Assembly: GCA_019090615.1 (NCBI GenBank)
Contig: JAHRVQ010000087.1
Coordinates: forward strand, 1-58,975
Source of the DNA: Pseudomonadales bacterium
GTDB lineage: Bacteria; Pseudomonadota; Gammaproteobacteria; Pseudomonadales; Azotimanducaceae
Direction: 5' to 3'
DNA: 58,975 nucleotides
A program made the translations under genes and the position numbers. Of the stretch, positions 35,561 to 52,803 are shown piece after piece. A model generated the notes under the pieces. That model saw only the letters and a list, made by a program, of their open reading frames with translations. It did not search any database and had not been told where the DNA came from. Position 1 is the first letter of the stretch. Every line of letters starts with the position of its first letter.

Positions 35561-36306
35561 ACAAAATTGTCCATTTAAAATAACCAGCTGCCTGATCAGC
35601 CGGAAAATTCACAGGCATCATGGGCGAAGAACATATTCAAGAGCAACCTTTTTGTTATTGTGTTTTCGGTCCATGCTCAGGATCTTACATAGGCCGAATA
35701 GTTCATGGCTTTTTCTCGGCCTGGAATTATAACCGTCGCCAACTATACGTCGCCGAAACGAATAATCCGCAGAGCAAAAACAGCACCTGATGAACAGCCA
35801 GAATAAAAGCAAAAATTACGACAACACCCGCACTGATAAAGTACACTACTTAGCTTTCATATATTAACTGACGACAAAAAACCTACCCGAATAAATGCCG
35901 GTGATCACAACCTCAACACCCAAACACCTGGTTTCAGTCTCTAAACCCGCGAGCGAAACTTAACCCCTTCGTATATACGTTTTCTCAGGTGGCCACAAAA
36001 AATTGCCCACAAATATACAACCCCACATAACTTGGGCGATATCATTCATGGTGAAAACAAGGGATTATAGAACAAATCGCACCCGACATAATGAGTTAGA
36101 TGCCTTAATATTGCCGTTTTGACAGAGCATTTATGCCATATTATGCCATATAATTGTCACCAAAATTTTATAGTGCCTTTTTGATACCCTTACAATTCGG
36201 TTTTTTTGCCTGGGTCAAATTCAGTAAAGTTATTTTATGAGATTATCTTGCTAGCTATTGAACTGGATCTACACTGTAGGACAATCAAACTATTTGGGGT
36301 GCGGAT
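35561..36306. other. 746-bp intergenic region upstream of a porin
   Basis: No convincing gene. A perfect TTGACA (36119-36124) and a perfect TATAAT (36149-36154) are 24 bp apart, with a 10-bp tandem duplication between them. A CGTATATACG palindrome lies at 35970-35979. A GGGG ribosome-binding site precedes the porin ATG. Confidence 0.5.
36131..36150. repeat. 10-bp tandem duplication between promoter boxes
   Basis: TTATGCCATA is repeated exactly (36131-36140, 36141-36150), lying in the spacer between TTGACA and TATAAT upstream of the porin gene. Confidence 0.9.
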
Positions 36307-37272
36307 ATGAACCGGCTTATCAAATTATTTGCATGGACAACGTTGATAATCATGAATATGACTATCAATACTTTTGGCAGTTCAAATTCTCTTTACGGCG
36401 ACTTTAGATATTCTTTAAATGATGTCGATGCAGGTACAAATACTACCAGTAGTGACAACAATGCTTCCAGACTAGGTTTCAAAGGCGACTTTGGTGACCC
36501 CGAAGGCATCACTGCATTTTACAATCTACAAACAGGTGTTAACGTAGATAGCGCCGCTGATGCTTTTTCTCAACGGTTCTTTTTTGCGGGGATAAAAGGC
36601 AAATTTGGCAAGGTGGCCTATGGTAGAACCTCTACTGCCTATAAAATGGCAGGTTTACGGCTTGACCCTTTCTATGACAGCTCTGCGGGCCCTGGCTTTG
36701 GGGGGGCAAATTTTGGCCTTTCGCCTTTGACCAATGGCTGGACCGATAATTCGCTTACATACACAAGCCCTAAACTAGGCCACTTTACCGTAAATGCAGC
36801 GGCCTTTCTTGATGATTCTGACGAGGATGAACATGATGCCAATGTGGGCATTTTATACAAAAACGAAACTATATCAGCAGGCTTTCAATATGCCCATATA
36901 GCAGATACTGGCGTTATCGCAAAGGGTGCTGCGGACAGCAATGCAGCCCGGTTTCATGTCGCTGCCAGGTGGGGCAAGTGGAACTTCAATGCCTCCATTG
37001 AGAAAATTGACGTAAGCCAGGGCAACGATCAGGACTACCTCTATCTTTCATCTACCTATAAGATGTCGGATACGCTGAAATTCGCTGCCTCGGTTGGCAC
37101 AGCTGATGATGTTAGTGTAACCGCTGATGGCGATGGCTACAGTCTCGGCATGTTTTATACAATGCCCACTCGAACAGTAATTTCTCTGATGTACAGCACG
37201 GTTGATTATGACAATGGTACTGACAGGGATATATTCGCCCTGGGCGTAAGCCAGAAGTTTTCCTTTAAATAA
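36307..37272 (+). CDS. Gram-negative porin
   Basis: 321 residues with a signal peptide (to about residue 24, cleavage near NTFGSS) and repeated amphipathic beta strands ending in short turns, as in general trimeric porins. Hallmarks are LYGDFRYSLN at the mature N terminus, GFKGDFGDPEG, FAGIKGKFGKVAYGRTSTAY (the strand preceding the constriction loop) and a C-terminal VSQKFSFK. It probably allows diffusion of small hydrophilic solutes. It stands alone between large non-coding regions, suggesting its own regulation. Confidence 0.85.
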   Translation: MNRLIKLFAWTTLIIMNMTINTFGSSNSLYGDFRYSLNDVDAGTNTTSSDNNASRLGFKGDFGDPEGITAFYNLQTGVNVDSAADAFSQRFFFAGIKGKFGKVAYGRTSTAYKMAGLRLDPFYDSSAGPGFGGANFGLSPLTNGWTDNSLTYTSPKLGHFTVNAAAFLDDSDEDEHDANVGILYKNETISAGFQYAHIADTGVIAKGAADSNAARFHVAARWGKWNFNASIEKIDVSQGNDQDYLYLSSTYKMSDTLKFAASVGTADDVSVTADGDGYSLGMFYTMPTRTVISLMYSTVDYDNGTDRDIFALGVSQKFSFK

Positions 37273-37302
37273 AATAGACGGTATCTTTTATTTTATTTTA
37301 AA
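37264..37302. terminator. AT-rich hairpin at the porin 3' end
   Basis: TTTAAATAAAATA (37264-37276) and TATTTTATTTTAAA (37289-37302) are near-perfect inverted repeats spanning the porin stop codon. The stem is almost purely A-T, so terminator function is uncertain. Confidence 0.35.
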
Positions 37303-37389
37303 GGCACTAGGAATAGCAGCTAAAATTCGACAGGCTCCGGGTAATCAAATTCCAAAGGTATTGATTATCCTCTAGTGATTTATCAGCAA

Positions 37390-37446
37390 CCAGGATAGTA
37401 CCTTATCGAACCGGTACCATCCTGGGTTTCCATGAGAAATGGAAAC
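37390..37446. repeat. Twin adjacent stem-loops
   Basis: The first has 13-base arms with one mismatch (CCAGGATAGTACC 37390-37402; GGTACCATCCTGG 37413-37425). The second has perfect 8-base arms (GTTTCCAT 37426-37433; ATGGAAAC 37439-37446). No T tract follows on either strand, so they do not look like ordinary terminators. Confidence 0.7.
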
Positions 37447-37710
37447 GCCATACTCAGACCGTCATCCTTAGAATTTCCTTTACATGAACCTCGACATCAA
37501 CTGTCCCGTCTATCCTAACGCCCAAGCAATGTTTCTCAAAAATGATGCAGTTACTATATAAAAGAACCCAGCCACTCTCTAACACCCGCCTCCGGCTAAC
37601 CTTAACCTAACCGGGCACAAACAGGCATAAAGAGCAGTATGCATTGGCAATTACTGATACTGATGATGCTAGTCTTAACACCATTTTCTTCAATAGAACA
37701 AAGCCGGTAT

Positions 37711-37735
37711 CCTGCCTTGATGCCAGCAAGGCAGG
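37711..37735. repeat. GC-rich stem-loop
   Basis: CCTGCCTTG (37711-37719) and CAAGGCAGG (37727-37735) form a perfect 9-bp stem with a 7-base loop. No T tract follows. Confidence 0.7.
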
Positions 37736-38021
37736 GCGGTAATCAGACTTAATCAAGCGCTCTCCAACACCAAATCATACAGAAAACTAACGTGCTAGTT
37801 ACCAAAACCAGCTCACATTAATGTCCATGAAACGCTACTAACGGATATTATATATTCTGAATAAAAACCTATCCAGCATTGATTCCGTCGTGTATATACG
37901 GTGTCAGAAAAGGATGCTCAGGAAACAACAACCCCAGTATAAAGCAGTTTAAATATGAAGAGTAAAGCGTGACTAAAAGCTAAGGACGAGCAGTGAGTAT
38001 AAGGATCTGGAACAACAACCG

Positions 38022-39929
38022 TTAAAACAAATCAACATCAACGTCGCCGACCCCTTCTTTGTCCTGTTCTTGAAAAACAAACTCAGACAGTATGGCTTTT
38101 AGCTTTTGCGATAGATTGATTAATTCTTCGGCATTTTGATACGTTGTTTTTGCATTGCCAGTAGTCTCCAACGATAGAACAGAAATCTTTTTGACGTTTT
38201 CTGCCACATCATCTGCCGCCCCATGCTGTATATGTACAGCCGCATCAATACTTGAATTCAACTTAACAATATCGGCAACTGAGTGCGATATCTCTTCGAG
38301 TGTGGTCAATGTTTTTTGCGAATGTTCTGTCGTCTCACCTATTTTTATACTGCCACTTTCTGTTGAACTAACCGCCGCCGCAGTGACGGCACTAAATCCT
38401 GTGACCATTGTTTCTATCTCCTTCGCCGAACTTTGAGTCTTTAAGGCCAAAGACCGAACTTCATCCGCGACAACGGCAAAACCTCGCCCCGCTTCTCCAG
38501 CTCGTGCAGCCTCAATCGCCGCATTAAGGGCGAGTAAATTAGTCTGATCGGCAATCGCTTTGATGGTCTCGATTATTGAGGCTATATTCTTCGCATTGCT
38601 TTCCAACGATTGTATTTCACTTGCTATACTATGAAACGATTCCACCAGTTGATCCATACTCTGGACCGCATCAGTCACAATACCGATGCCATTATCAGAT
38701 ATTTTCGACACCCCTCGCGCTGATTCATTGGCATCAGCGGAAATAGATTCTACATCGTGACTCGCGACCCTCATGGTCTGCATGTTGTTTTCTAAATCAC
38801 TGGTCATTTGATGTTGCACAGCCATATTAGAAGAAGTGGATTGGGTATTAACCTGCATTTCTCTGGCAGTTATTGACAAATTTCCCACTACATCATGTAA
38901 TATAACCAGTGATTTTTTTAAAGAAGATATTAATCCCTGAACACCCTGAGTGATGAGCCTTAATTCCAAAAGCCCTTCCAGTTTGGTATTAACTGTCAGG
39001 TCGCCATGAGCTATAAGGTCAAGGTCTTTCAATAATCGTTTAATCGGCTGGAACAGTAAAACTCTTAGCACTGAGAAACTGGCTAAAAGCACCACCACCA
39101 ACACAATTATATAACCCAGGAAAATGGAGTACCTGGTTGATGCCATGGACCTGGCAAGATGCTCAATATTCTCCTGAGTAGTAATAGTAAGACGGGCACC
39201 ATCTTGCTCTAAAAGATTAAAAGTAGCGGCTATATAATACGGGTTATCTATTACCCAGTCGTCAGACTGGTAACTGACTACAGTGTTTTGTCTTATTTGA
39301 ACCGGGCTATCAATGATCTCTGCAACTCTTTTTAAATGGAATACAGGGTCAGTAACTACCTCGATATAACCTTTAATTCGCAACCCCCCAATGGGCAAAA
39401 TAACGGTCTGAAAACCTTGCTGTGCATCGCCCCAAAGCCTATTAAAAGGACTAAATTTATCGCCCTTATCACGGTTCAATAACGCTGACTTAATCCCAGA
39501 ACCAAGCGGCAGTAATTGTTGTGCACCAAGATTACTTTCAACAAGAAAGGTCATTTTTTTGTCATAAAGCCGAACTTTTACCAGATCCAACAGACTACTG
39601 GTAACAAACCGCTCGGTGAAAGGGGCGTCTAATAAAGGTGTTAACGCCAGCCTACGTTCCTTTTCATCACGTATTTTAATTGATCGGCCGATGGCTTTAG
39701 ACCGTGCCAATTCACTCGCCAGGATTATACTATCTTCCACAAGGTCATTGAGCGTTTTATAACTGGAAACTTTAGAAACCCGTGCCAGTGAATGTTTTTG
39801 TGCTTCAATGGAGCTTTGCTCGATATAGTAGGTACCTATGGCCGCCATCAAAATAGCTAGCGCACCAACAACGCACAGGATAGTAAATATCACTCCCCGA
39901 ATGCCGATGGTGAACTTATAAATCGCCAA
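38022..39929 (-). CDS. Methyl-accepting chemotaxis protein
   Basis: 635 residues. TM1 (about 10-32) is followed by an extracytoplasmic sensor (about 33-265), TM2 (about 272-295), HAMP ([20 protein letters not shown]) and a full signalling domain whose tip reads [20 protein letters not shown] followed by [14 protein letters not shown]. It likely starts at TTG 39929 with AGGGG upstream. There is no C-terminal NWETF-like tether. The sensor shares RFVT..LL..VK.R.YD (near residue 108) and P.GGLR..GY.E.V (near 177) with the CheA-like protein at 44457-47114. No CheW, CheA or CheR gene of a canonical system is in the window. Confidence 0.93.
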
Positions 39930-40004
39930 TGTTATGTACCCCTGGGCACGTCAATATAGTACCACAGTAATAATGAATTATATCAGTACTTTATTGACAG
40001 ACTG

Positions 40005-40430
40005 TTAGTCTTTAACGAACGGGTAGTTATTCTCGCTCCATTCCTCCCAACCACCTCTAAACCAGTACACATTAGTATAACCTTCAGCAACGGCAATTTT
40101 GGCGGCTTTCACACTTCGACCACACTTAGGTCCATTACAATAGAAAACCACCTCATTAGATTTGCTAGGAATATTTTCTGCAAGTGACACCGGTGTTGTT
40201 AGCGTATCCGGCAAGGCAATCGAACCTTCGATATAACCACCCGCTCTATCGCTGGCTTTTCTTGAATCAATAATAATTAGATCATCATGCTGATCATATA
40301 AATCAAAAATTGCCTCAGCCGTCACGCGTGTCGTACCAGCAATAGATTCGGGCGCTGCCTTTTCTGCAGATGATACATAAAAGGGTAAAAACAATAGACC
40401 CAGCGATAGTATTCTCAACAATGGACGCAT
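40005..40430 (-). CDS. Exported rhodanese-domain protein
   Basis: 141 residues. A signal peptide (to about residue 21, LLFLPFYVSSAE) is followed by one rhodanese domain (about 35-140) with the start-of-domain motif IIIDSRKASDRAGGYIEGSIALP and active-site loop FYCNGPKCGRSVKAA, where the first Cys is the expected sulphur acceptor. Periplasmic single-domain rhodaneses have varied or unknown roles. It follows the chemoreceptor by 75 bp on the same strand, but a functional link is not shown. Confidence 0.85.
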   Translation of the reverse strand: MRPLLRILSLGLLFLPFYVSSAEKAAPESIAGTTRVTAEAIFDLYDQHDDLIIIDSRKASDRAGGYIEGSIALPDTLTTPVSLAENIPSKSNEVVFYCNGPKCGRSVKAAKIAVAEGYTNVYWFRGGWEEWSENNYPFVKD

Positions 40431-40775
40431 GGAAATCTCGGCTATCTGGTGGGTTTCATTAACTATAGTCCACTAATCGTTTGGCGAGATGAAACGTGTT
40501 GATAGCAAAATAGCATTTTGAAATTACTTTAGCTGCTTATATTTTAACAGGTAATAAAGCACTATTATGTATGTAATGAAGGATATTCTGGCACCAGCCA
40601 AATTATAAAAATTTAAAAAAATACTGCAAACATCCAGTAAAACTCCAACAAGGTCACTAGAAGTCCAACATCAGGTTCAGCGGTATAACAAAAAATACGT
40701 TTCAGCGCCAGGGATTATAGGAACAAAGAACGCTATATATCACTAATGATATCACTATCAACGGCTTTCGTAGTC
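40431..40775. other. 345-bp intergenic region
   Basis: AT-rich spacer between the rhodanese and the CheX-domain kinase, both on the minus strand. I see no gene and no clear hairpin or promoter. Confidence 0.4.
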
Positions 40776-41990
40776 TCAATGATACAGCGGCAACTCAAGC
40801 GTCACCACACTACCTTTGGCATAGACCGACTGAAAATCAATACCGCCATCGTTTAGCTTCGCCAGTTCCTGGCTCAATGCCAGACCCAGGCCAGTGCCAG
40901 CATAAGATTTTGTGTAGGCATCATCAATCTGTGAAAAAATCTGAAATAAACGATGTTTATCCTCTTCTTTTACACCGATGCCGGTATCTTCTATAATTAT
41001 TTTCACATGGTCTTCAGTGCATACTTGGCGCATTACAACAGAACCTTCATTGGTATATTTCAATGCATTGGAATATAGATTCATGATAATCTCTTTAATG
41101 CGCAGCGCATCACCATTAACCCATACTTCTTCGTTCTGCATATCTAGTCGAGCAGCTAGCTGTTTTTCAATCGATAAATAATTCAACATTTCAAAGACAT
41201 CGGCTACTATGGGCGTGATATTCATTCGCTGTTTATTGACCTGTAGCTTACCCGCCTCTATTGCATTCATATCCAGCACAGAATTAACCAGTTCCAGCAA
41301 GTGATTACTACTAACCTCAACAGTTTGTAACGCCTTTAATGTTCTCCCAGCAAGTTGATCAGTGTTCTTTCGCAATACAATTTTTGTGAATCCAATGATG
41401 GCATTCAGCGGGGTTCTGATTTCATGGCTCATATTGGCCATAAATAAATTCTTAGATTCAAGCAGATCCTCGGCCTCGGCGAGGTTTTTCATCACCTTGG
41501 TCTGGGTGGTATCAGAACAAACAGCAAACTCGAGGGCACCATAGTTTGTTGTCATCGATACGCTATGGGTTAGAAATCGTGGGAAGAATACAGTACCGTA
41601 AATAAGGTCAACAGGACGCACGGTAAGTAATTCGCCTTCTTCCTGAAGCATGGGTAACATTTTACCCGCTACAGTATTCATCGCCTCCCGCACAGAACCC
41701 GCCAGCACTCGCCTGAATTTTGCTTTTTCATCTGCGTTCGCAGAACCAATTTGATCGACACTAATACCTATCATTGCCGCGGCTGTTGTTTCACAACAGT
41801 TCATGACTAGCCTGACCTGAGACGAACCCTGTAATTCGACATAACAGATAAATTCTCCATTTTGTTCGAACCCAAGTCGCTTATCACTTACCTCAGACTG
41901 GACAGATATTTCCGCCTCAAGAACCTCGTTTAAAACAGTTACAAAGATAGCTGAAAAATCTTCAATCGGATAATTCAGAGAATCAATCAA
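40776..41990 (-). CDS. CheX-domain-fused sensor histidine kinase
   Basis: 404 residues without membrane segments. Residues 1-155 resemble a CheX/CheC-type chemotaxis phosphatase domain, with the catalytic-type ExxN at E102-N105 (REAMNTVAGKM). A short helix leads to HisKA with His189 (MSHEIRTPLNAIIGF) and a complete HATPase (NLYSNALKYTNEG, IIEDTGIGVKEED, GTGLGLALSQELA). The start is TTG at 41990; no ATG exists before the domain. In the CheC/CheX family ExxN removes phosphate from CheY-P. Fused to a kinase, it may act as a phosphatase on the CheY encoded divergently, or as a dimerisation or sensing module. It is divergent from the CheY-CheX-CheA operon. Confidence 0.85.
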   Translation of the reverse strand: MIDSLNYPIEDFSAIFVTVLNEVLEAEISVQSEVSDKRLGFEQNGEFICYVELQGSSQVRLVMNCCETTAAAMIGISVDQIGSANADEKAKFRRVLAGSVREAMNTVAGKMLPMLQEEGELLTVRPVDLIYGTVFFPRFLTHSVSMTTNYGALEFAVCSDTTQTKVMKNLAEAEDLLESKNLFMANMSHEIRTPLNAIIGFTKIVLRKNTDQLAGRTLKALQTVEVSSNHLLELVNSVLDMNAIEAGKLQVNKQRMNITPIVADVFEMLNYLSIEKQLAARLDMQNEEVWVNGDALRIKEIIMNLYSNALKYTNEGSVVMRQVCTEDHVKIIIEDTGIGVKEEDKHRLFQIFSQIDDAYTKSYAGTGLGLALSQELAKLNDGGIDFQSVYAKGSVVTLELPLYH

Positions 41991-42424
41991 TATGGAACCT
42001 GCTCAGGATTTTATTTTCATTTATTATAGACCAAGTTAAGGTCTGATATGATTCGATAAGGTCAGCCAGGCTTAGTACAAATAATTAATTTGATATCGTT
42101 TTTAATGCAGACCCAGTATAGATAAATAGTATAGGAGAATACCCGATACAATAATTAACCTTTGCCAACATACACCCTGTCCCAAAGTACATCCTGCACC
42201 AACGTGCCAAACCGAAAATTAAGGTTGAACATCCTTCTTTCAGAACCCAATGCTATAAAACCATTATTTACACAACTATCCCTCATAAAAGCATATCAAT
42301 ATTAACCAAAATTTATCAACTGAAATGCAAAACCTGAAAATTTTAAAATATAGTTAGGTCAGATATGCCCAAAACGATTTTGATAACTACACTGATAATT
42401 ATCAGTATTTTTAGGGTATTAAAA
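41991..42424. other. Divergent control region of the CheX/CheY/CheA island
   Basis: About 430 bp of AT-rich DNA separate the minus-strand CheX-kinase from the plus-strand CheY. The only strong element is a 16-bp palindrome next to the CheY start. An in-frame ATG at 42365 exists upstream of CheY, but the extension it would encode is hydrophobic and lies before the canonical receiver start. Confidence 0.5.
42391..42406. promoter_or_regulatory. Perfect 16-bp palindrome before CheY
   Basis: ACTGATAATTATCAGT is its own reverse complement and is followed by ATTTTT, 18 bases upstream of the receiver start codon. It could be an operator or a small attenuator hairpin. Confidence 0.5.
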
Positions 42425-42802
42425 ATGGCAAGTGTGGTGATTGTTGACGATAGTGTATTTCTTGCAGATAAAATCAAAGCTTTTCTTGAAGCTGAAGGTC
42501 ACGAAGTGCTGGGGGTCGGTGAAGACGGCAACGAAGGGTTTGCCCTTTACAAAGAGCATAAACCAGACTTCATCACTCTGGACATCACAATGCCAGTTCG
42601 CGATGGACAGGAATGCCTGGAAGATATACTTGAGTACGATGAATCTGCCAGCGCAATCGTTGTCTCCGCCATCGACGATAAAGCCATTATTCTAGATTGC
42701 ATGACCACCGGTGCAAAAGGCTTTATAGAAAAACCGCTGAAGTTCAGCAACGACGATTTTTGTACTGTTTTCCGCGAGGCAATTGAAGCCGCCTTACATT
42801 AA
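42425..42802 (+). CDS. CheY-like single-domain response regulator
   Basis: 125 residues from the ATG at 42425; upstream in-frame codons to 42365 are probably not translated. It is a stand-alone receiver: acidic pocket D8-D9 (VIVDDSVF), phospho-acceptor Asp53 (FITLDITMPVRDG), Ser81 and Lys103 (IEKPLKF). There is no output domain, so it works by protein contact or as a phosphate shuttle. It is first in an operon with a CheX/STAS-like/zinc protein and a CheA-like kinase. Confidence 0.9.
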   Translation: MASVVIVDDSVFLADKIKAFLEAEGHEVLGVGEDGNEGFALYKEHKPDFITLDITMPVRDGQECLEDILEYDESASAIVVSAIDDKAIILDCMTTGAKGFIEKPLKFSNDDFCTVFREAIEAALH

Positions 42803-42945
42803 CCCGCGCTGCCTATCCTTAGATAAATTGAGCGATAGCGCGAGAAATTAATTAACCGGTACGCAGTTGTTGCGGAAAATACCCGAAAAAATGCTACAAC
42901 CTATTTCGTTTATTCCTTTTTGATTATTCATTGCCTGGAGAAATC

Positions 42946-44253
42946 ATGCATTTAGAGTCGATTGATTATGATGCCGTTATCGATGTACTTAGAAACGGCT
43001 TCATTGCCGGGCTAGAAGATATATTAGAAATAACCCTGGAGGCAGGAGAAACATCAACCCATTCCGAAAAGACCTATTCACCACAGGGTAATTGTTTTGT
43101 CGAGGTAGGATTTATCGGTAAGGTAACCGGCTTTGTCGCCATTTGCGCTGATGAAGCCGTTTTTTCTGAATGCTTTGATCTCCAGGCTGAGGCATCGGTG
43201 CTGTTAGATGAAATTCGTCATCAAATTACCGGTCCCTTAAAAGAAATCGCCAATACAACTGCCGGCAAGATACTCAAGATTTTGCTACAAACCTATTCAC
43301 CAATGACGATGCAGGCACCCAAGGTTACCTATGGCGCAGTTTCCTATCCAAAAGTTGGTTGTGTGCGGCATAGCATGAAGACCAACTCCGGAGAAATCCA
43401 TTTCTATTTTAGTATTGATTCAATGAAACTTGATGTCACCAAGGCGATCGAAAAACTCGAAGAATCAGAACAAAAAAACCAGGACGTCATCGAATGGTTG
43501 GGCACATTATTCGAAGAACTGGAACTGACTGAAACCAACCTGGTGGACGATGTCGGCGATACAATCAGGAAGATTGAGGAAATTGAACGAGTGTTATCAG
43601 ACAGTGAACAAACACTAGACGATACGCTGCGCACTGATCTACAGGAAGCCCTGTCAACACTGACACATACCCGGCAAACAATGAATCGCAACCTGGCGAT
43701 TACCATTCATGATCTGCGAGTCTGTAACAACCAGATGCTGAATCATCTAATGGTCACAAAAGTCTGGGAGCACGACACTTATCTTAAGGTCACCTTATTT
43801 GGCTACCTTGAAGACCGCTCCAATTTGGCTTTTTTCAACGAAATTGGTAGCGGCAAGTTAGTCATCAATGCGCGCAACCTGTTACGCTTTAGTGACAATG
43901 GCATCCGTGCCTGGGGCAAACAGACTAAACGACTTAGCGACAAAGTTGATCTTAGCTTCGAAGAATGCACCAGCCATTTCCTGGAGGTATGTCTTGAAAA
44001 ACCACGCTTTGCTGACAAATTATCCGTCGAGTCCATTCTTTCACTATATACCTGTGCTTCGTGTCATTATAGGGAAGAGGTAATTTTACATAAGGACAGT
44101 CATCGACAGTTCCAGCTGCCTAAAGTGCTCTGCAGTTGCGGCAATATTATGCGACTGTCGCCAAAACAGGAATCAACCACAGAATTTCTTGCCCAGGTTA
44201 ATAACATGCTGGTCAATGAACAAACCACAACAACCCAGGACCAACGCCACTAG
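42946..44253 (+). CDS. CheX-like / coiled-coil / STAS-like / zinc-ribbon protein
   Basis: 435 residues from the ATG at 42946, seven bases after GGAG; the longer frame begins at a TTG. Residues 1-160 resemble CheX, with ExxN at E100-N103 (KEIANTTAGK). Residues 165-250 are charged and helical, probably a coiled coil. Residues 265-350 look STAS-like (LFGYLEDRSN, LVINARNLLRFSDNGIRAW, FEECTSHFLEVC). A C-terminal zinc ribbon is suggested by C370-x2-C373 and C396-x-C398. No membrane segment. It may couple CheY dephosphorylation to an anti-sigma-like or scaffold output. The architecture is unfamiliar to me; the function is inferred. Confidence 0.75.
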   Translation: MHLESIDYDAVIDVLRNGFIAGLEDILEITLEAGETSTHSEKTYSPQGNCFVEVGFIGKVTGFVAICADEAVFSECFDLQAEASVLLDEIRHQITGPLKEIANTTAGKILKILLQTYSPMTMQAPKVTYGAVSYPKVGCVRHSMKTNSGEIHFYFSIDSMKLDVTKAIEKLEESEQKNQDVIEWLGTLFEELELTETNLVDDVGDTIRKIEEIERVLSDSEQTLDDTLRTDLQEALSTLTHTRQTMNRNLAITIHDLRVCNNQMLNHLMVTKVWEHDTYLKVTLFGYLEDRSNLAFFNEIGSGKLVINARNLLRFSDNGIRAWGKQTKRLSDKVDLSFEECTSHFLEVCLEKPRFADKLSVESILSLYTCASCHYREEVILHKDSHRQFQLPKVLCSCGNIMRLSPKQESTTEFLAQVNNMLVNEQTTTTQDQRH

Positions 44254-44298
44254 AAGTAATTCAGGCGATACTTTGTCGTTCTATAACCGGCAGGTCAA

Positions 44299-44387
44299 CG
44301 TATAACTGTTTCGCTTATGAGCATTTATCATATTTACCAGGGCTTGTTGCCCATATCAAGCACGCTACCTGACGAAACAGTTATACG
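44299..44387. repeat. 15-bp perfect inverted repeat with 59-nt loop
   Basis: CGTATAACTGTTTCG (44299-44313) and CGAAACAGTTATACG (44373-44387) are exact reverse complements. Inside, GGGC-TTGTT-GCCC (44340-44352) forms a second hairpin. It fills the 203-bp spacer before the CheA-like gene and has no T run after it. Candidates are a structured 5' RNA, an attenuator or a small mobile-element remnant. Confidence 0.7.
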
Positions 44388-44456
44388 GCCGCCGAATACG
44401 ACATTATTAATTGGTTAGCGTCGCGTATAATACCAGCGCACTATAGAGGTAGGCTT

Positions 44457-47114
44457 GTGCAGTTAAAAAATATTTCGTCAAAACCATTGATTATTTCTTT
44501 GATACTTGGGCTCTGCGTCAGCGCAATAGCACTATCATTTTATGCCTCCCATGAATCAAAAAAATCTGCTCTAGTGGCACAAACCAAAACCTTGAAACGT
44601 GTTATCGAAGTGGCATCAAATGACGCTTTGGCCGATCTGTATGAACTCACTGTAGAACTTGCAAAAAGTGTCGTATCGAACGACATACTCATAAAAACAT
44701 TCAAGACCGCCGAAACAAGTTTCGATGAAGCACAAAGCGAACAACTTAATATAGAGCTCGGCCGGCAGTTTCACCAACGATTTGTTACCGCTGGGCTGTT
44801 GGAGGTGATAAAAATCCGCGCTTATGATACTCGACTGCATTATCTTGGCGCTAGCAACGAAGGCCGCGATCTAGGCGAAAAACTTTTATATGAAGTCATA
44901 GAAACTGTATTACAACGAAAAAAAGCCGAACGATTTAAACCGCTAGCCATACGGTGGCAGACCGACAATAGCGCATATTATTCACTTTTCTACCCTGTTG
45001 GCGGGTTACGTTTAGCTGGCTATGTAGAAATCGTAGTTGCGCCGGCGCACAATTTGGGCATTATCGATCAGGCCCTCGCCGCGCCAGTGACCATTCGCTC
45101 CCTCGACCAGAAACCATTATATCAAAGTAGCAATTGGCAAAATACCAGCGATAAGGTACTGGAAGTTGTCTATCGCATGCCACTGAGCAATGGCAACCCA
45201 GGACTGGAACTTATCCTACAGGAGGATATTCAGGCCTTCAAAAATTCCACCCAGCAGACCCAGACACTTATTGTCGGGGTGTTTGTACTGCTGGCTGTTT
45301 TTGGATTGCCATTTTCCTTATTAGTTTTGCGTAAGAACTTATTCCAACCGTTAGAAGCACTATCAGGCTCCGTGTCTCTCATCGCTAGCGGTGATATGTC
45401 AGTTGAATTAAAACCAACGCCAAGGAAAGACGAATTGGGCTCCCTTGTAGTTTCAGTAGAATCGATGCGAATTGATTTAAAAGATGTAATTGAAAACCTT
45501 GATCATAAAGTAGCCGCAAGGACTGAGGAACTGGTTATTGTCCAGGATGAAATAACTGATATTCTCGACTCTGTGGAAGAGGCCATATTTACCTTTAATT
45601 TGGATAAAAGTGTGAATGCCGAACATTCAAACAAAGCAGAGCGATTGTTCTCTACCAAAGATTTTGAAGAAGCCAATTTATTTACCCTACTTGATGCAGA
45701 TGAGGCCGCTGCGAAGCAATTCGATAAATGGTTGTCTTTTTGCGCGAAAAACAAAGCAGTACTCAAACAGTGGAAACAAATAGAGAAACTGACACCCATT
45801 CGTGAAATTAAACGCCAGCAAGCACCCAATACGGGCAAGCCAGGCGTAAATAATGCTGGCACAGGGGGTAATAACTTTGAGATTATACAACTCACCTACC
45901 AACCCATAGTAAAAGATAACCAACTAACAAAAATAATGGTGTTGGCAATGGACGTGACAGACCAGCGTCTAATCGAGAAAGCCTTAGAAAAAAGTAAACA
46001 CGACCAGAACTGCTTAACCGAACGCGTGGTCGCGATGATCGCAGGGGATCAGGAAGAAATTGAAAACTGGATTAACCTGAGTAAAGCCGCCCTGGAGCAC
46101 TTTACTAAATTTGAAACAATCGAAGATTTTGGTCAGGATGTTGATGAACTCTTTAGAGAGGTACATACACTTAAGGGCCATAGTGGCACACTGGGTTTTG
46201 GTGAATTTGCAAATGCGCTAGGGTTAGCTGAAAACAACCTCGCTAACCTACGTAACGGCACAGAAATGGATATCGTTGACTGGAGCAATAGTATCGTTCA
46301 TGCCGATTCAGAGCTGGCAAATATCCAGCAATTAAAACAAAAAATATTTGCTGCACATTCTAAAGAAGGGGTGTGGGTCAACAAAACCATTTATGAAGAA
46401 ATGTTAGGTAACCTTAAAGAAAACCGCTCCTACGACATAGATCAACTAATGCAAGCGATTGAAAAACTGGATGCAATGCGGTTTGAATCTTTTTGCCGAA
46501 AATATACGCAACTTACTGAGCGTTCCTCTACAGCACTGGGCAAAAAAGTCGGCCAGTTAAATATAGAAACGCCGGATGTGCTAATTAAAAAATCAGTACT
46601 CAGGAATTTGGATGATGCGATTGTGCATCTGCTGAGAAACGCTATAGATCATGGCATCGAACCGGCCAGCGTCCGAGACAAACTTGGCAAAGATGAAGGC
46701 AAGATTAGCATTGCTGCCACCATGGGTGATGAACAACTATCAGTGGTTATCCGCGATGATGGCCGAGGCATTGATCCAGACCATCTCGCCCGTGTTGCAC
46801 TCAAAAAAGATCTGCTGACCACAGAGCAGGTCGCAGCGCTATCAAAAGAAGAAAAGATGGATTTGATCTTTATGCCGGGTTTTACCTCGAAGCAATCGGT
46901 TACTGCTTTAAGCGGCAGAGGCGTTGGAATGGACGCAGTAGCAAATTGTCTCAACGAAATAGGCGCAAGTATCTCGATGCATAGTGAAATTAATATGGGT
47001 ACCCGGTTCACCATTTCCATCCCTCACGTGAACAGACTAGCGGCATTTGATACCTTACTAAACCCAGAAGGTAAAATTATGTCGTTAGCTCACGGCAACC
47101 TGGCCAGTCATTAA
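44457..47114 (+). CDS. Membrane-bound CheA-like kinase with HPT domain and no CheW-binding domain
   Basis: 885 residues, GTG start after GAGGTAGG. Order: TM1 (about 10-30), extracytoplasmic sensor (about 31-260), TM2 (about 270-292), HAMP (KNLFQPLEALSGSVSLIASG), coiled linker, PAS-like region (about 360-510), HPT with His570 (REVHTLKGHSGTLGF), then a CheA-type P4 ATPase with N-box HLLRNAIDHGIEP, DDGRGIDP and ALSGRGVGMDAV. The protein ends 25 residues after the ATPase fold, so the P5/CheW-like domain of true CheA is missing. It probably phosphorylates the CheY two genes upstream. The sensor is paralogous to that of the chemoreceptor at 38022-39929. Confidence 0.85.
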   Translation: MQLKNISSKPLIISLILGLCVSAIALSFYASHESKKSALVAQTKTLKRVIEVASNDALADLYELTVELAKSVVSNDILIKTFKTAETSFDEAQSEQLNIELGRQFHQRFVTAGLLEVIKIRAYDTRLHYLGASNEGRDLGEKLLYEVIETVLQRKKAERFKPLAIRWQTDNSAYYSLFYPVGGLRLAGYVEIVVAPAHNLGIIDQALAAPVTIRSLDQKPLYQSSNWQNTSDKVLEVVYRMPLSNGNPGLELILQEDIQAFKNSTQQTQTLIVGVFVLLAVFGLPFSLLVLRKNLFQPLEALSGSVSLIASGDMSVELKPTPRKDELGSLVVSVESMRIDLKDVIENLDHKVAARTEELVIVQDEITDILDSVEEAIFTFNLDKSVNAEHSNKAERLFSTKDFEEANLFTLLDADEAAAKQFDKWLSFCAKNKAVLKQWKQIEKLTPIREIKRQQAPNTGKPGVNNAGTGGNNFEIIQLTYQPIVKDNQLTKIMVLAMDVTDQRLIEKALEKSKHDQNCLTERVVAMIAGDQEEIENWINLSKAALEHFTKFETIEDFGQDVDELFREVHTLKGHSGTLGFGEFANALGLAENNLANLRNGTEMDIVDWSNSIVHADSELANIQQLKQKIFAAHSKEGVWVNKTIYEEMLGNLKENRSYDIDQLMQAIEKLDAMRFESFCRKYTQLTERSSTALGKKVGQLNIETPDVLIKKSVLRNLDDAIVHLLRNAIDHGIEPASVRDKLGKDEGKISIAATMGDEQLSVVIRDDGRGIDPDHLARVALKKDLLTTEQVAALSKEEKMDLIFMPGFTSKQSVTALSGRGVGMDAVANCLNEIGASISMHSEINMGTRFTISIPHVNRLAAFDTLLNPEGKIMSLAHGNLASH

Positions 47115-47232
47115 GTAACCATTTTTTGAGTTATTGCCAGGCATAGATTGGCGAAACTTTTGCAAAGGGGCTTCTTAAAGGAGCCTTCGTAAAGGGATTT
47201 TTGCTAAACGCGCATTTACTATCGAGTTTTGA

Positions 47233-49561
47233 TTAAACAGACTTTGACAAGCGCTTTAACCAGAACTTCCACTCGGCAACTTCTTTACCCTGTTCGGCAA
47301 TATCCATGGAAGTTTTAACGACCTGTCCCGCCTCTAATGCTTCAGAGGAGCAGCTCTCAGCTGAATCTTTTAGTTTATCAATACCAGCGGAAGTCTGCTC
47401 AAGGGTAGTTGCCTGTTGCTCAGTGCGATTACTTAAATCAATATTACCTTTAGCAATTTTTTCTGAAGCCAGGACAACGGATAACGCCATACTTTGAATT
47501 TCCTTAATGATGCTGCTTAAATCTGTAGCAGTCTTGTTAACTGACGCTTTCACCTCGCCAAAGTCACCACCATAATCTCCCGTGATTCTAGCCGTCAAAT
47601 TCCCCTCCGCCATCTGATTAAACACCGCACCTAACTCGTCAAAGGTACCACTAATCAGCTCCATCAATTGATTGAGTGAATCTGTCAGAGCAATAAAGAA
47701 ACCCGCTTTATCTTGTGTCGCCATACGCGTAGAAAGTTCACCTTTTGAAGCCGACGCCACCAGGTCTTCGGCTTCATCCATTACAGATTTCAAATTATCC
47801 GCTGTTTGATTGGCTTTGGTGGCAATTTCGCCAAAGGTACTCTGATAGGATTTTTCGATACGATGATTAAGATTGCCCGTTGCCAGGGCTTCCATCATCA
47901 ATTGCGTATCTTGCAACGAACTACTCACCGAATCGATAAGGTTATTAAGGTTGAAACTAAGACTCGAAAAGAAGCCTTCTTTACCTTCAATGGTTATTCG
48001 ATCTTTCAACCGTCCTTCAGAGCTAGATTTTACTAGCGCTTCAACTTCGCCCATTGCGGATTGCAAATTATCGGCAGTTTGATTGGCTTTCACAGCGATC
48101 TCACCGAAGGTACCCTGATAACGTGTTTGAATACGCTGCTCCAGATTACCGACGGCCAAAGCATCCAGAATCTTTTTCGTATCAAACAACGAGTTGCTAA
48201 CACTATCCAGTAGACTATTAGGTTTTTCACTAACAGACAAAAAGAAACCAGATTTGTCGGTAAGTGTTATTCTGTTTTCAAGATCGCCGCAACTGGCCTG
48301 ACTAATAACATCATCTATTTCTTTTTCGACCTGGGACTCAGTGGTTTTGTTCACCCATTCAAGCGTAGTACCAAGGGCTTGCCCATCAACATCACAAACC
48401 GGTGTGGCATTCACCAGGAACACCCGATCTTCTATGACGATTTCCTGCCGCTCAAACCCACGCCGCAATTGATTACAGAGCGCAGACCTATCCGAGGACC
48501 CAAACACGCCAAATTCCATATCCAGTACCGCCTGCACAGTTTTCATCGGACGCAGCATCTGGCCCAGAGAATCATTGCCATAAACCAGCCGATTTTCTGA
48601 ATTGATAATCGCTACCCCAGTAGTAACGCCATCTAGAGACTGCCTTATTCTGCTGTTTTCTCGAGCAATACCCTGCTCCTCCAGCACCTTCTGCCTTTCT
48701 AATCTGAGTTTTTCCTGACTCTGTGCTTCTGCCAGATAAGTTTCTGTTAGATCATGCCACTCGATGACTGTTCCGAGTCGATTATCATCTTCATCTATCA
48801 CCGGCGAGATAATCAGCTTTAGATGCCGCTCACCAATTGACAAGGTTTCTGTGGCCGGCTCTACAAAGGTACTGAGGTTGACTTTAAGGGCCGCAAATTG
48901 TTTCCCTAACGCCACACCCTCCAAATTGGTTGGATCTTGTTTGCCAAAAATTATCGACGGATCATTAACGTAGTTTTTAAAATAATCATTTAGCCGGTTG
49001 TTAGTGAAAATAACCTGATCTTTTTCATCCAGCATCATGATCGCGGTAGCAGCATTTCGTAAGGCAAAATTAACCCGAGAGGGCTCAGTAGAAATACGTT
49101 TATTTTCTCTGAACACAAATATAAAGAAAATCAGCGCGTTAGTCATACTACCTAGCTCATCTTTACGCTTATTGCCCTCCACCTCAATAGATAAATCACC
49201 GTCCGCAATTGCGCTCACGGCTTGCTGAAGGTTTTTCATCGGGTTAAATAAATTTTTGCAGTAACACCAAAGCGCTGCAAACACCGACAACACTCAGTAA
49301 TACAAAAAGACCAATAATAAGCTTTTGGGTATTGGCTAAAGATTGTAAGAACGCGGCAATATCTTCCTGCAACATTTGGTTTAAAGCCGGTTGGCCATTA
49401 GGAAAGGCCGGTAAGTATTCTATCTCCAGGATAGAATCACTGGCATCGGCGCTAGCACCGAAATATTCAAGCTTTTTATTGTAGGCACGCACCTTGACCA
49501 GATCGATGGTGGCTATTCGCTTAGAGCATATAGCTATTATATTAATGACACCTAAGAACAA
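47233..49561 (-). pseudogene. Degraded poly-HAMP/PAS chemoreceptor
   Basis: Two overlapping frames (49244-49561 and 47233-49293) together make one damaged receptor. The N-terminal TM and most of the sensor are missing: IDLVKVRAYNKKLEYFGAS is followed almost directly by the membrane-proximal NQMLQEDIAAF. A one-base frameshift near 49252-49262 splits ...SALVLL from KNLFNPMKNL. Then come HAMP, two PAS-like segments and tandem HAMP-like repeats with a period of about 91 residues (KANQTADNL twice). The methyl-accepting domain starts (ASEKIAKGNIDLSNRTEQQA) but stops after about 60 residues. The closest relative in the window is the CheA-like protein (QEDI.AF; KNLF.P; RKDELGS). Confidence 0.85.
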
Positions 49562-49663
49562 ATTTTAAAAAAATAGAATCCCGCCAGGAATAGACCCGTA
49601 TTGCGAGCACTGGATCTATACTTGGAGAATCATATTCTTTTGATAAAAAATCGACGAGCGACA

Positions 49664-51565
49664 ATGAACGACTCATCTGTAAGTTTTATTAAATTTCAAA
49701 TAATGCTAATCGCCCTTATTAGTACTATCGGATTCTTAAGCTACGTCGGTTTTAATTACATGGTCGCGAAAGAAAATGGCGCATTGATCCTGGAAATCGG
49801 CAGTAAAAAATTTCCTATCCTGCAGCAAATTACAAAAATAAAAAATAATGTCCCTTTTGCCAAGGATGCACTTGGGAAATTGATCGTTCTAGAGGACATA
49901 TTTTATATACAGGACGCTGACCGAATAGACAGCCAGATAAAAAAATCATTTGCCCAGGTTAAAAGCCTTGAACAATCGAACTTCGATGAGATAAACAAAA
50001 TTCAAAAACAATACCACCAATGGTATACCAACGGTCGTAGTTTATCGCTGCAACTCATGGCAGATACCGATGCCCCTGGGCCGGACAAAAACGTCATCAC
50101 AGTACTTAACCTTCAATATGCCCGCTTATTCGAGCAACTGCAGATATTAGAATCATTCTATATCAATAGCTACACTCAAAGTTTAGCCCAGGCTGACAGC
50201 GCGCAAAAACAGGCCATTAGCAACGGCCTGTTATTTGGCGGAATATTGAACATTGTGCTGGTAATATTCGCCTGGACAATCGCCAACCTTGTTAGCAAAG
50301 CAGTCCTTAAATCCAACCTGGTTAAAGATGAGTTTTTGGCCACCATTAGCCATGAATTACGCACCCCGATGAACGGCGTACATGGATCGTTAGAGCTACT
50401 AAAGATCGTAGCACCCAATAAAGGCGAAATCGGCGACTACATCGGCACAGCTTATGAATCGACTAAATCGATGATGGAATTAATTGATAATCTGCTGAAT
50501 TATATTGAAGCGCGCTCAGGCAATTTAAAACCCGGCAGCTACCGCTTCAACCTTAAATTACATCTCGCACTGCATGCCCATTACTATAATAATATCTGCC
50601 AGAAAAAAAACATGCTGTTTTACTTTGATCTGGCCGCAGTGCCTGATGCGGACCTGATTGGTGACGGCAGGCGGCTAATTTTATTACTTAAAAGCTTGTT
50701 AGACAATGCCGTCAAGTTCACCGACAAAGGCAGTATCAACCTGCAAATAACCACCCGGAAAGTCCACCAGAGAATAATTTTCACGTTCAAAGTAATTGAT
50801 TCCGGCGTTGGTATTGAACAAAAAAATATGCAAGAAATATATACTTCGTTTCGACAGGTTGATGGGTCCTTTAGCCGACGCCATGGCGGCTTAGGAATAG
50901 GCCTTGCAACCAGTGCCATAATCGCACGTTTAATGAAAGGAAATATAACATTTGAATCAACCCCAGGAGTCGGCTCTACCTTCTGTTTAGAAATACCCTT
51001 TGATATAGCACCCAAACAGAAAAAATCCACCAAAAACACAAAATCATCAGCGCAAAAATCACCAGCAACCAAGCCAACACTCAGCCAGCCTCTGGACCAA
51101 CAACACGCCGCATACAGCGGCATCACCACACCTCATGCAGAGCAAAATACAATCACTAAGCCAGCCTCTGAGATATCTGCAAAAAGTCGATTTCTGGTAG
51201 TTGAAGATAACCTTGTGAACCAGAAGGTGCTGCGGGCACTGCTGATAAAACTGGGCCATGAAGTTGACGTCGCTGAAAACGGCAAGGTAGCGTTAAATTC
51301 ACTAGAAGAAAACAGTTTCGATTGCATTTTTATGGACTGCCAAATGCCAGTAATGGATGGGTTTGATGCGACTCGAAATATCAGAAAATCCTCCGCAGAC
51401 TTCGCCTCTATCCCCATCATTGCTGTTACCGCCAATGCTATGTCTGCTGATCGAGAAAAATGTATTGATGCTGGCATGAATGATTATGTCCACAAACCCT
51501 TTAAAAAGGAAACCATTAGATTGATGGTAGATAAATATGTATGCCCTGATAACAATGCCCATTGA
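49664..51565 (+). CDS. Hybrid sensor histidine kinase with receiver domain
   Basis: 633 residues from the ATG at 49664; the open frame extends upstream to a TTG at 49601 but the extra residues look non-native. TM1 (about 8-28), a helical periplasmic domain (about 29-180, resembling a four-helix-bundle sensor), TM2 (about 187-208), HisKA with His230 (TISHELRTPMNGV), HATPase (LLDNAVKFTDKG, VIDSGVGIEQ, GLGIGLATSAIIARL), a Lys/Ser/Pro-rich linker, and a receiver with Asp558 (FMDCQMPVMDG). It precedes an outer-membrane protein and a PstS-like protein on the same strand; the three may form one sensing unit. Confidence 0.9.
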   Translation: MNDSSVSFIKFQIMLIALISTIGFLSYVGFNYMVAKENGALILEIGSKKFPILQQITKIKNNVPFAKDALGKLIVLEDIFYIQDADRIDSQIKKSFAQVKSLEQSNFDEINKIQKQYHQWYTNGRSLSLQLMADTDAPGPDKNVITVLNLQYARLFEQLQILESFYINSYTQSLAQADSAQKQAISNGLLFGGILNIVLVIFAWTIANLVSKAVLKSNLVKDEFLATISHELRTPMNGVHGSLELLKIVAPNKGEIGDYIGTAYESTKSMMELIDNLLNYIEARSGNLKPGSYRFNLKLHLALHAHYYNNICQKKNMLFYFDLAAVPDADLIGDGRRLILLLKSLLDNAVKFTDKGSINLQITTRKVHQRIIFTFKVIDSGVGIEQKNMQEIYTSFRQVDGSFSRRHGGLGIGLATSAIIARLMKGNITFESTPGVGSTFCLEIPFDIAPKQKKSTKNTKSSAQKSPATKPTLSQPLDQQHAAYSGITTPHAEQNTITKPASEISAKSRFLVVEDNLVNQKVLRALLIKLGHEVDVAENGKVALNSLEENSFDCIFMDCQMPVMDGFDATRNIRKSSADFASIPIIAVTANAMSADREKCIDAGMNDYVHKPFKKETIRLMVDKYVCPDNNAH

Positions 51566-51732
51566 AAAAAATTCGCCGCGACCATTGACAGAGGACAGGC
51601 GTAACCGACCAATTTACAGTGCCATTTAAATATCACAACAAACAACCTTAAGTCTAAACAAGATTTCCATAGCAAAACAAAATATACCGACTATATTCCA
51701 GTTAACTCATTTCTTCTCATCGGAATCAGCTT

Positions 51733-52803
51733 ATGTGGTCGCAAAAAAAAGCCCCGCTGCTAATTTTGGCCTGGCTTTGCCTACTAACTAGTCCCTTTTC
51801 TTTCGCAGAGATGAATATCAAATTATCTGGCTTTTTGACCGCAGGGGTCGCCATTTCTGATAACGAAGATAGTTATCTTGGAAAAAGCTACACCGATAAA
51901 ACAGACTTTTCTTCTGATTCTATTTTAGGGCTACAAATTGATAGCCGCTTTAATGACAAGGCACGAATTTCAGGTCAACTTGTTGCACAAAAGCAAAATG
52001 ACTTTGAAGTTGAAGCCGAGTGGCTTTATATTGCTTATCGTTTTTCACCAGCGACCACAGCACGAGCTGGCCGACTAAGAATGCCGCTTTATTCCGTTTC
52101 ATCTTTTATCCAGGTATCAAGCGCCTACCTATGGCAGGCACCGCCTGAAACAGTTTATGACCAAACGCCCTTTAATCGATATCATGGCGTTGATCTAACC
52201 TATACCAAATCCCTGTCGGGCAATTCTTTCGCCGCCACTATCTATGCCGGTGAACTTAGCGATGACATAGAGTTTTCGGGATTAACCGGCCGTGTCGAAA
52301 CCGATGGCTTTTATGGCATTCGGTTGGATGCGGCGACTAACCACTACAAAACTCATTTAACCTACCTCACTACCAACGTAAAAATCTTAGCCTTTGGTCA
52401 AAGCATCGATATTGATGCGCTATTTTTTGCTGCGGGCCTAACATTTTCCTACGGCGCCTGGGAAACCAATATTGAATGGGCAAGAACAGATACGGATTCT
52501 GCTATTTTTGGCGTAACCAATGGCGGTTTTATAACCCAGTCTCGTTCATTGTCAGACTGGAGCGGATATATTACTTATGGTATCAGCCGATCTGAGGAAC
52601 TCAACGACGCCTTCAGCAAAGATTCTTCAAACATCACAGTGGGTCTAAAATTTGATGATGATAATAATTTAACCTGGAAAGCCGAACTTCATCATGGCAA
52701 AGCTGAACCGAATACACCGGGGCAATTTAATCTTCCCACGGGCACCCTACCTCAGGACCCAACGGTAAATCTACTACGTCTTAGTGTCAGCACGACCTTT
52801 TAG
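51733..52803 (+). CDS. Porin-like outer-membrane beta-barrel protein
   Basis: 356 residues. The signal peptide (to about residue 25, LLTSPFSFAE) is followed by alternating beta strands from MNIKLSGFLTAGVAISDNE to the C-terminal LLRLSVSTTF, whose terminal Phe is the BAM recognition signature. The strand pattern and phrases such as EWLYIAYRF and RAGRLRMPLYSVS are common in porin-like proteins found beside small PstS-like proteins. The substrate is unknown. It lies 11 bp before the next gene. Confidence 0.8.
   Translation: MWSQKKAPLLILAWLCLLTSPFSFAEMNIKLSGFLTAGVAISDNEDSYLGKSYTDKTDFSSDSILGLQIDSRFNDKARISGQLVAQKQNDFEVEAEWLYIAYRFSPATTARAGRLRMPLYSVSSFIQVSSAYLWQAPPETVYDQTPFNRYHGVDLTYTKSLSGNSFAATIYAGELSDDIEFSGLTGRVETDGFYGIRLDAATNHYKTHLTYLTTNVKILAFGQSIDIDALFFAAGLTFSYGAWETNIEWARTDTDSAIFGVTNGGFITQSRSLSDWSGYITYGISRSEELNDAFSKDSSNITVGLKFDDDNNLTWKAELHHGKAEPNTPGQFNLPTGTLPQDPTVNLLRLSVSTTF

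Follow-up and report, generated by a model that had tools for sequence, protein, structure and literature searches.

Four neighboring genes on contig JAHRVQ010000087.1 of a Pseudomonadales bacterium (family Azotimanducaceae, GenBank assembly GCA_019090615.1) may encode a chemosensory-type relay that is wired through CheX domains. In this relay a membrane Hpt kinase would signal to a CheY, and the CheY to two CheX proteins. Judged from domains and motifs, the relay is given about an even chance of being correct. The window, which is the whole stretch of DNA analyzed here, is contig C83 (58,975 nucleotides, nt) of a 4.88-Mb draft genome (G000). All four open reading frames were found at the places and on the strands given by an earlier sequence-only reading of this DNA. 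P0001 is a histidine kinase with an N-terminal CheX-like domain and lies on the minus strand. Divergent from it on the plus strand are P0002 (a stand-alone CheY), P0003 (a CheX domain joined to a C-terminal module with four conserved cysteines, Cys4), and P0004 (the membrane kinase). The features are listed in Table 1.

The placement of the N-terminal regions of P0003 and P0001 in the CheX/CheC superfamily is supported by profile searches and by the motif that they share. The CheX region of P0003 scores 29.3 bits and passes the Pfam cut-off of 27. P0005, a full-length paralogue of P0001 on contig C45 of the same genome (30% identity over 397 amino acids, aa), barely reaches this cut-off with 27.1 bits. 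The other members P0007, P0009, P0012, and P0013 score 26.9, 26.4, 26.0, and 22.4 bits, respectively. A profile of five CheX regions, built from window, C45, and G424 sequences, was run against the Protein Data Bank (PDB) and matched 14 sequences up to an expectation value (E) of 10. Ten of the 14 are named CheX/CheC or chemotaxis proteins, and these include ranks 1 to 8; the remaining four are EME1 nuclease chains with E of 0.93 or worse. The best match is 3hzh_B (E 3.4e-5), in which the E and N of the ExxN motif are aligned. Entry 3HZH is presumably Borrelia CheX with CheY3, and 1SQU and 1XKO are taken here to be Thermotoga CheX. These CheX/CheC phosphatases are alike in profile match and in ExxN motif but are stand-alone proteins, whereas the CheX domains of the window lie within larger proteins.

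The ExxN motif had been noted in two of the proteins, and both copies are present (E102 and N105 of P0001, E105 and N108 of P0003). It is invariant in the five CheX domains aligned, in all four CheX-Cys4 proteins, and in all four CheX-histidine kinases. According to an excerpt of PMC3510030, the activity of Borrelia CheX needs both residues. In a tree of 21 CheX rows the fused forms stand apart from the stand-alone ones, weakly; the tree has unresolved forks and long branches, and one row strays (the Burkholderia REC-CheX protein described below). A stand-alone CheX is also encoded on contig C18 of the window genome.

The HisKA and HATPase domains of P0001 have Pfam scores far above their cut-offs. 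P0001 has no hydrophobic segment of the transmembrane type and is therefore soluble-looking.

The open frame of P0003 runs from a TTG at 42931 (440 aa), and an ATG at 42946 gives 435 aa. The ATG is the more likely start because it is preceded by GGAGA. A zinc ribbon had been proposed for the C-terminal part of this protein. The four cysteines behind that proposal, a CxxC and a CxC, are invariant in all four family members, so metal binding by the Cys4 module is plausible, but a profile match to a zinc ribbon was not obtained. No profile match was obtained for the Cys4 module, and the six PDB matches did not include a STAS domain.

The STAS domain that had also been assigned to P0003 did not hold up. 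Its hhalign score of 8.3 is below what 40 STAS profiles with shuffled columns reached on average (10.1). As a control, the seven STAS domains of this genome were searched with each one left out in turn; six of them were recovered at E of 3.5e-4 or better, and the seventh, itself below the Pfam cut-off, at E of 0.005 only. STAS was absent from the Pfam matches listed up to E of 10 for four members of the P0003 family. An earlier single-sequence STAS comparison also gave no match, and its controls were uninformative. A very distant STAS fold in P0003 is possible.

P0002 is a plain Response_reg protein, as the description of a stand-alone CheY had implied. Residues D8, D9, D53, S81, F100, and K103 are invariant in the four CheY proteins of the set, and these share 55–65% identity with each other versus 26–33% with three other receivers compared. 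Three relatives start at the position equivalent to 42425, which makes this the more likely start of the CheY. CheB models of NCBIfam touch only the receiver part of P0002.

The description of P0004 as a membrane CheA-like kinase also agrees with its domains. HAMP, Hpt, and HATPase domains were identified by Pfam, and two hydrophobic segments start near residues 11 and 272. The PAS-like label rests on a sub-cut-off match in one relative, P0010. The Hpt histidine and the ATP-binding glycine-rich motif SGRGVGM are kept in six of six kinases. The best NCBIfam match of P0004 is CheA_Halo over residues 676 to 857, far below the whole-protein cut-off. P0004 is like CheA in its Hpt and CheA-like HATPase domains and differs from it by its own membrane sensor and by the absence of a CheW match. 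No CheW/P5 match was found in P0004 or anywhere on contig C83; the genome has eight CheW domains, on contigs C36, C23, and C7. In a CheA survey, as far as its excerpt goes, a CheW domain occurs in 100% of CheA sequences and CheW plus HATPase defines a CheA (PMC10782961). By that definition P0004 is not a CheA, because it has no CheW match. No CheR or CheB match was found by Pfam in the eight window proteins scanned, the rest of the window being unscanned for these two, and the four proteins of the set are without CheW/P5, CheR, or CheB. Going by their domain content, these genes do not form a canonical chemotaxis cluster.

Two outcomes named beforehand would have refuted the earlier reading, namely N-terminal regions that fall outside the CheC/CheX superfamily and four genes that do not recur in other genomes; neither outcome was observed. 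CheY, CheX-Cys4, and the membrane Hpt kinase occur together at four of four loci in three genomes of one order, and the divergent CheX-HisKA kinase occurs at three of the four. The loci are the window, G424 C63 (L056), G458 C45 (L164), and G458 C89 (L165). At G424 C63 the order is rhodanese, kinase, methyl-accepting chemotaxis protein (MCP, on the other strand), CheX-Cys4, CheY, divergent CheX-histidine kinase, and a single receiver gene. The membrane kinase there is 49% identical to P0004. At G458 C45 the CheX-histidine kinase is divergent from CheY, CheX-Cys4, and a CheA-like gene, with the membrane kinase on the other strand. At G458 C89 the membrane kinase is divergent from CheY and CheX-Cys4, a stand-alone CheX follows, and the CheX-histidine kinase is absent. 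The kinase sensors vary among the loci, and the Hpt-HATPase core is common to them. Because two further genomes carry the set, it is apparently a genuine pathway and not a chance grouping. The proposal that the pathway is self-contained fared less evenly: a non-canonical set does recur, but the sister loci add a CheA-like gene, add an MCP and a second receiver, or lose the CheX-histidine kinase.

Searches of wider sets of genomes returned few relatives. With the CheX profile, 14 of 390 genomes of the order had a match at E of 0.01 or better. The strong matches, which have E of 1.8e-31 or better and lie in frames of 408–476 aa, were confined to G000, G424, and G458, which belong to three families. 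Five of the weak frames were checked by Pfam. Those of G540, G718, and G751 are AcrB-type transporters, and are thus chance matches; those of G458 C46 and G516 are CheX-REC proteins. A single-sequence search with P0003 found its own genome, one of 38 relatives, and one of 369 genomes of the class. The profile scan of the class matched four of 369 genomes (its own and three weak ones). In the phylum the CheX-Cys4 profile matched five of 398 genomes, namely its own and four with weak, partial matches in frames that include ones of 319 and 328 aa, and nothing comparable to CheX-Cys4 was found among these 398. In the two small families to which G458 and G424 belong, one of five and one of two genomes, respectively, had a match. 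The spread is patchy: G462, which is of the same genus as G424 and 87% complete, has no match. One contig scan yielded no relative. In the contig scan with kinases, the best 80 of 565 matches were mostly CheA-type kinases. Plasmids yielded nothing beyond a single match that was weak and partial (E 0.03).

The relay model is built on the domains, the kept catalytic motifs, the recurrence of the set, and the differing sensors on a related kinase core; from these we infer all of its phosphotransfers and its output, as well as the pairing of CheX with CheY and the direction in which control runs. P0004 would sense an extracytoplasmic signal, autophosphorylate at H570 of its Hpt domain, and hand the phosphoryl group to D53 of P0002. 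Since the CheX-histidine kinase is absent at G458 C89, CheY probably receives its phosphoryl group from the Hpt kinase. Phosphorylated CheY (CheY~P) would then be recognized by the CheX domains of both P0003 and P0001. P0003 would dephosphorylate it through ExxN, with the Cys4 module carrying or recruiting an output. In P0001 the CheX domain would feed into a soluble HisKA kinase, and in this way CheY~P would control how active a second kinase is. That second kinase would have a receiver partner of its own; in G424 this may be the product of the lone REC gene that immediately follows the CheX-histidine kinase. That gene suggests that the G424 kinase has its own target, and that CheY is not its only one. 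Read this way, CheX would have turned from an eraser into a reader of CheY~P that controls a second histidine kinase, while its sister in CheX-Cys4 couples erasing to a new output. This last reading is tentative and somewhat less likely than not.

Several observations weigh against the relay and against the place of P0001 in it. The CheX domain of P0001 by itself scores 13.7 bits and that of the G458 CheX-histidine kinase 13.4 bits, both below the Pfam cut-off of 27; the CheX call for P0001 is made because its relatives P0005 and P0009 align with it. P0001 is the outlier among the four CheX-histidine kinases, with 29–32% identity to the others versus 41–51% among them, and P0005 is a closer relative than P0001 of the CheX-histidine kinases found at the G424 and G458 loci. 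Because of this divergence, the tie of P0001 to the relay could be weaker than its position implies. There is no receiver gene behind P0001 in the window. The CheA-like gene at G458 C45 has a CheW/P5 score of 20.5 bits against a cut-off of 23.5 and is a possible CheY donor there. The set is carried by three genomes only. The Cys4 module has no recognizable relative, which makes its output role a guess. AlphaFold2 models of P0003 have a mean pLDDT (predicted local distance difference test) of 34, and of 36 for the C-terminal 168 aa, which is too poor for a fold search.

Three other explanations were weighed. P0001 could be a second kinase and phosphatase of the same CheY, its HisKA part phosphorylating P0002 and its CheX domain removing the phosphoryl group, with two kinases and two phosphatases converging on one receiver. 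P0001 is divergent from the CheY gene and adjoins it, the window has no further receiver gene beside it, and the H-box of P0001 has the HExxT form, in which a Thr or Asn is needed for HisKA phosphatase activity (excerpt of PMC3510030). This convergence is nevertheless unlikely, given the separate receiver gene directly behind the CheX-histidine kinase in G424 and the CheY and CheX-Cys4 genes that occur without a CheX-histidine kinase at G458 C89. Somewhat less probable still is a side branch of chemotaxis, in which the CheX proteins only terminate signals, the flagellum is the target of P0002 or of the motor CheY, and the fused parts serve only to localize the phosphatase. The eight CheW domains on three other contigs fit such a branch, as do an MCP of the same sensor family about 4.5 kb from P0004 and the near-cut-off CheW/P5 match at one sister locus. 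The four proteins themselves lack a CheW, CheR, or CheB match, however, a stand-alone CheX is already present at C18, and a full HisKA kinase is unlikely as a mere localizer.

The island could also be decaying or moving, with P0001 a drifting paralogue whose CheX role is lost and with remnants in the neighborhood. A broken receptor remnant at 47233–49561 with a sensor resembling that of P0004, a kinase remnant interrupted by internal stops next to the G424 locus, and the patchy distribution agree with decay. All four frames are nonetheless open over 378–2658 nt and keep their key motifs, and only a slight chance is given to this explanation.

The relay wired through CheX domains can be compared with described systems. 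The closest precedent that has been tested is PdcABC of Burkholderia thailandensis, a cascade of cyclic diguanylate (c-di-GMP) signaling in which phosphorylated PdcC inhibits PdcA and PdcB dephosphorylates PdcC (excerpt of the review PMC9899790). As proposed for the window set, PdcB, a phosphatase with a CheC/CheX domain, targets a lone response regulator (PdcC) outside chemotaxis, and this regulator, once phosphorylated, controls a further enzyme, going by the same excerpt. The systems differ in that the CheX of PdcABC is separate and its output is a diguanylate cyclase, whereas in the window CheX is fused to HisKA or Cys4 and a membrane Hpt kinase is included. No GGDEF match was found in the eight window proteins scanned. 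The gene set would work like a small chemosensory or Pdc-type relay. CheC/CheX fused to CheA is described in Leptospirae, and fusion to HisKA kinases goes unmentioned in the excerpt of that survey (PMC10782961). CrdS/CrdA with Che3 in Myxococcus xanthus links a HisKA kinase to a chemosensory system, as here, and the excerpt of PMC3510030 does not mention a CheX domain in CrdS. No description of a CheX-HisKA or CheX-Cys4 fusion was recognized among the open-licence papers listed.

A looser set is present in Burkholderiales. It contains a membrane 4HB-HAMP-Hpt-HATPase kinase, a short MCP-hairpin protein, a CheX-like protein, and a CheY, and it occurs at six of six loci (L088, L098, L103, L128, L179, and L180). 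These loci were chosen by their kinase; open reading frames were read in L088, L098, and L103, and domains were scanned in L088 and L098. With the L098 proteins as queries, all four homologues were found in the same order at the other five loci. No CheW match was found in the seven proteins scanned from L088 and L098. The separate CheX-like protein matches Pfam CheX at E of 0.0046, below the cut-off. One record annotates these genes as Hpt domain-containing protein, methyl-accepting chemotaxis protein, and hypothetical protein; the L179 record has no annotation at them. The Burkholderiales sets are like the window set in having a HAMP-Hpt-HATPase membrane kinase, a CheX-like protein, and a single CheY. 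They differ in that the CheX-like protein is separate, the MCP-hairpin protein is extra, and no CheX-histidine kinase was seen. Between the two kinds of set the kinases are 19–23% and the CheY proteins 29–33% identical.

Fusions of CheX to a receiver were also observed. In Burkholderia sp. MS389 a REC-CheX protein (L088, 13224–14183; CheX 36.3 bits, which passes; receiver assigned by eye) lies beside the kinase-MCP-CheX-CheY set. CheX-REC proteins of 331 aa are encoded at 919–1911 of L073 and at 919–1911 of L083 (minus strand), in G516 C34 and G458 C46. Their CheX domain scores 33 bits and their Response_reg domain 96 bits, and the domain order is opposite to that of the Burkholderia protein. 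Like the CheX proteins of the window, they fuse CheX to a signaling domain and belong to the same taxonomic order; they differ in that the partner is a receiver, not a kinase, and in their weak match to the fused-CheX profile (E 0.004–0.008).

Table 1. Coordinates of the features in the window, with the evidence for each.
Feature	Position	Strand	Evidence
P0001, CheX-HisKA-HATPase histidine kinase, 404 aa	40776..41990	-	domain scan, paralogue alignment, hydrophobicity
CheX-like N-terminal domain of P0001, residues 1-165	41496..41990	-	homology to P0005, P0009, and P0003 CheX regions; profile to solved CheX
ExxN of P0001 CheX domain, E102-N105	41676..41687	-	kept in 5/5 CheX domains, 4/4 CheX-histidine kinases
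HisKA phospho-acceptor H189 (SHEIRTPLN) of P0001	41424..41426	-	kept in 4/4 CheX-histidine kinases
P0002, single-domain CheY, 125 aa	42425..42802	+	Pfam Response_reg, alignment
P0003, CheX - helical-looking linker - Cys4 module	42946..44253	+	Pfam, alignment
ExxN of P0003 CheX domain, E105-N108 (numbered from TTG)	43243..43254	+	invariant in 4/4 family members
Cys4 motif C375xxC378 ... C401xC403G, C-terminal module of P0003	44053..44139	+	invariant in 4/4
P0004, membrane kinase: transmembrane segment - extracytoplasmic sensor - transmembrane segment - HAMP - PAS-like - Hpt - HATPase, 885 aa	44457..47114	+	Pfam, hydrophobicity
Hpt phospho-acceptor H570 (HTLKGHSGTLGF) of P0004	46164..46166	+	invariant in 6/6 kinases
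Palindrome, 15-nt perfect arms, in the 203-nt P0003/P0004 gap	44299..44387		folding versus shuffles
MCP, sensor homologous to P0004 sensor; associated, not core	38022..39929	-	29% identity over 304 aligned positions, E 3e-34
Rhodanese-like protein	40005..40430	-	signal-peptide-like start by eye; 53%-identical homologue flanks G424 locus

The three plus-strand genes had been described as an operon. They do share a strand, but the arrangement is loose, with gaps of 143 and 203 nt and a strong palindrome in the latter. With these gaps, operon status is likely only. As a single strand the palindrome folds much more stably than shuffled sequences do (z −4.7), and it could be a hairpin element or a terminator; the explanation of the relay does not need it. 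No third copy of its arm was found in the window with up to two mismatches, and no exact copies were found in the other loci compared, save those overlapping the palindrome itself. A search of 36000–52000 with Rfam at the gathering score gave no match, and a tRNA scan of the whole window found none. Promoter-like sites numbered 14 versus 14.9 expected, which is uninformative.

One sensor type is present on both a receptor (the MCP at 38022–39929) and a kinase (P0004). In the receptor remnant on the minus strand, the sensor end and the HAMP start match P0004 in two pieces, one of 106 aa (37%) and one of 54 aa (46%); after them come HAMP-type repeats and a PAS match below the cut-off. A rhodanese homologue lies at the kinase end of the G424 locus, and an MBL-rhodanese-like protein, identified by eye, at 17290–18357 of L164. 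A link between the rhodanese-like protein and the sensed signal is possible. A paralogous membrane kinase is encoded at L057 (6766–9030) and L058 (8499–10724), 68% identical between G000 and G424. It adjoins porin-like, small phosphate-binding-like, and cytochrome c peroxidase-like genes, named by eye.

If the relay is real, an ordinary two-component kinase would take CheY~P, a chemotaxis-type output, as its direct input, by way of a domain so far known as a phosphatase. This would be an extra way of stacking signaling pathways. CheX-bearing genes that are labeled hypothetical in databases would be flagged as members of pathways outside chemotaxis. Both the CheX-HisKA and the CheX-Cys4 protein are predicted to be soluble and are of moderate size, which should make the idea easy to test.

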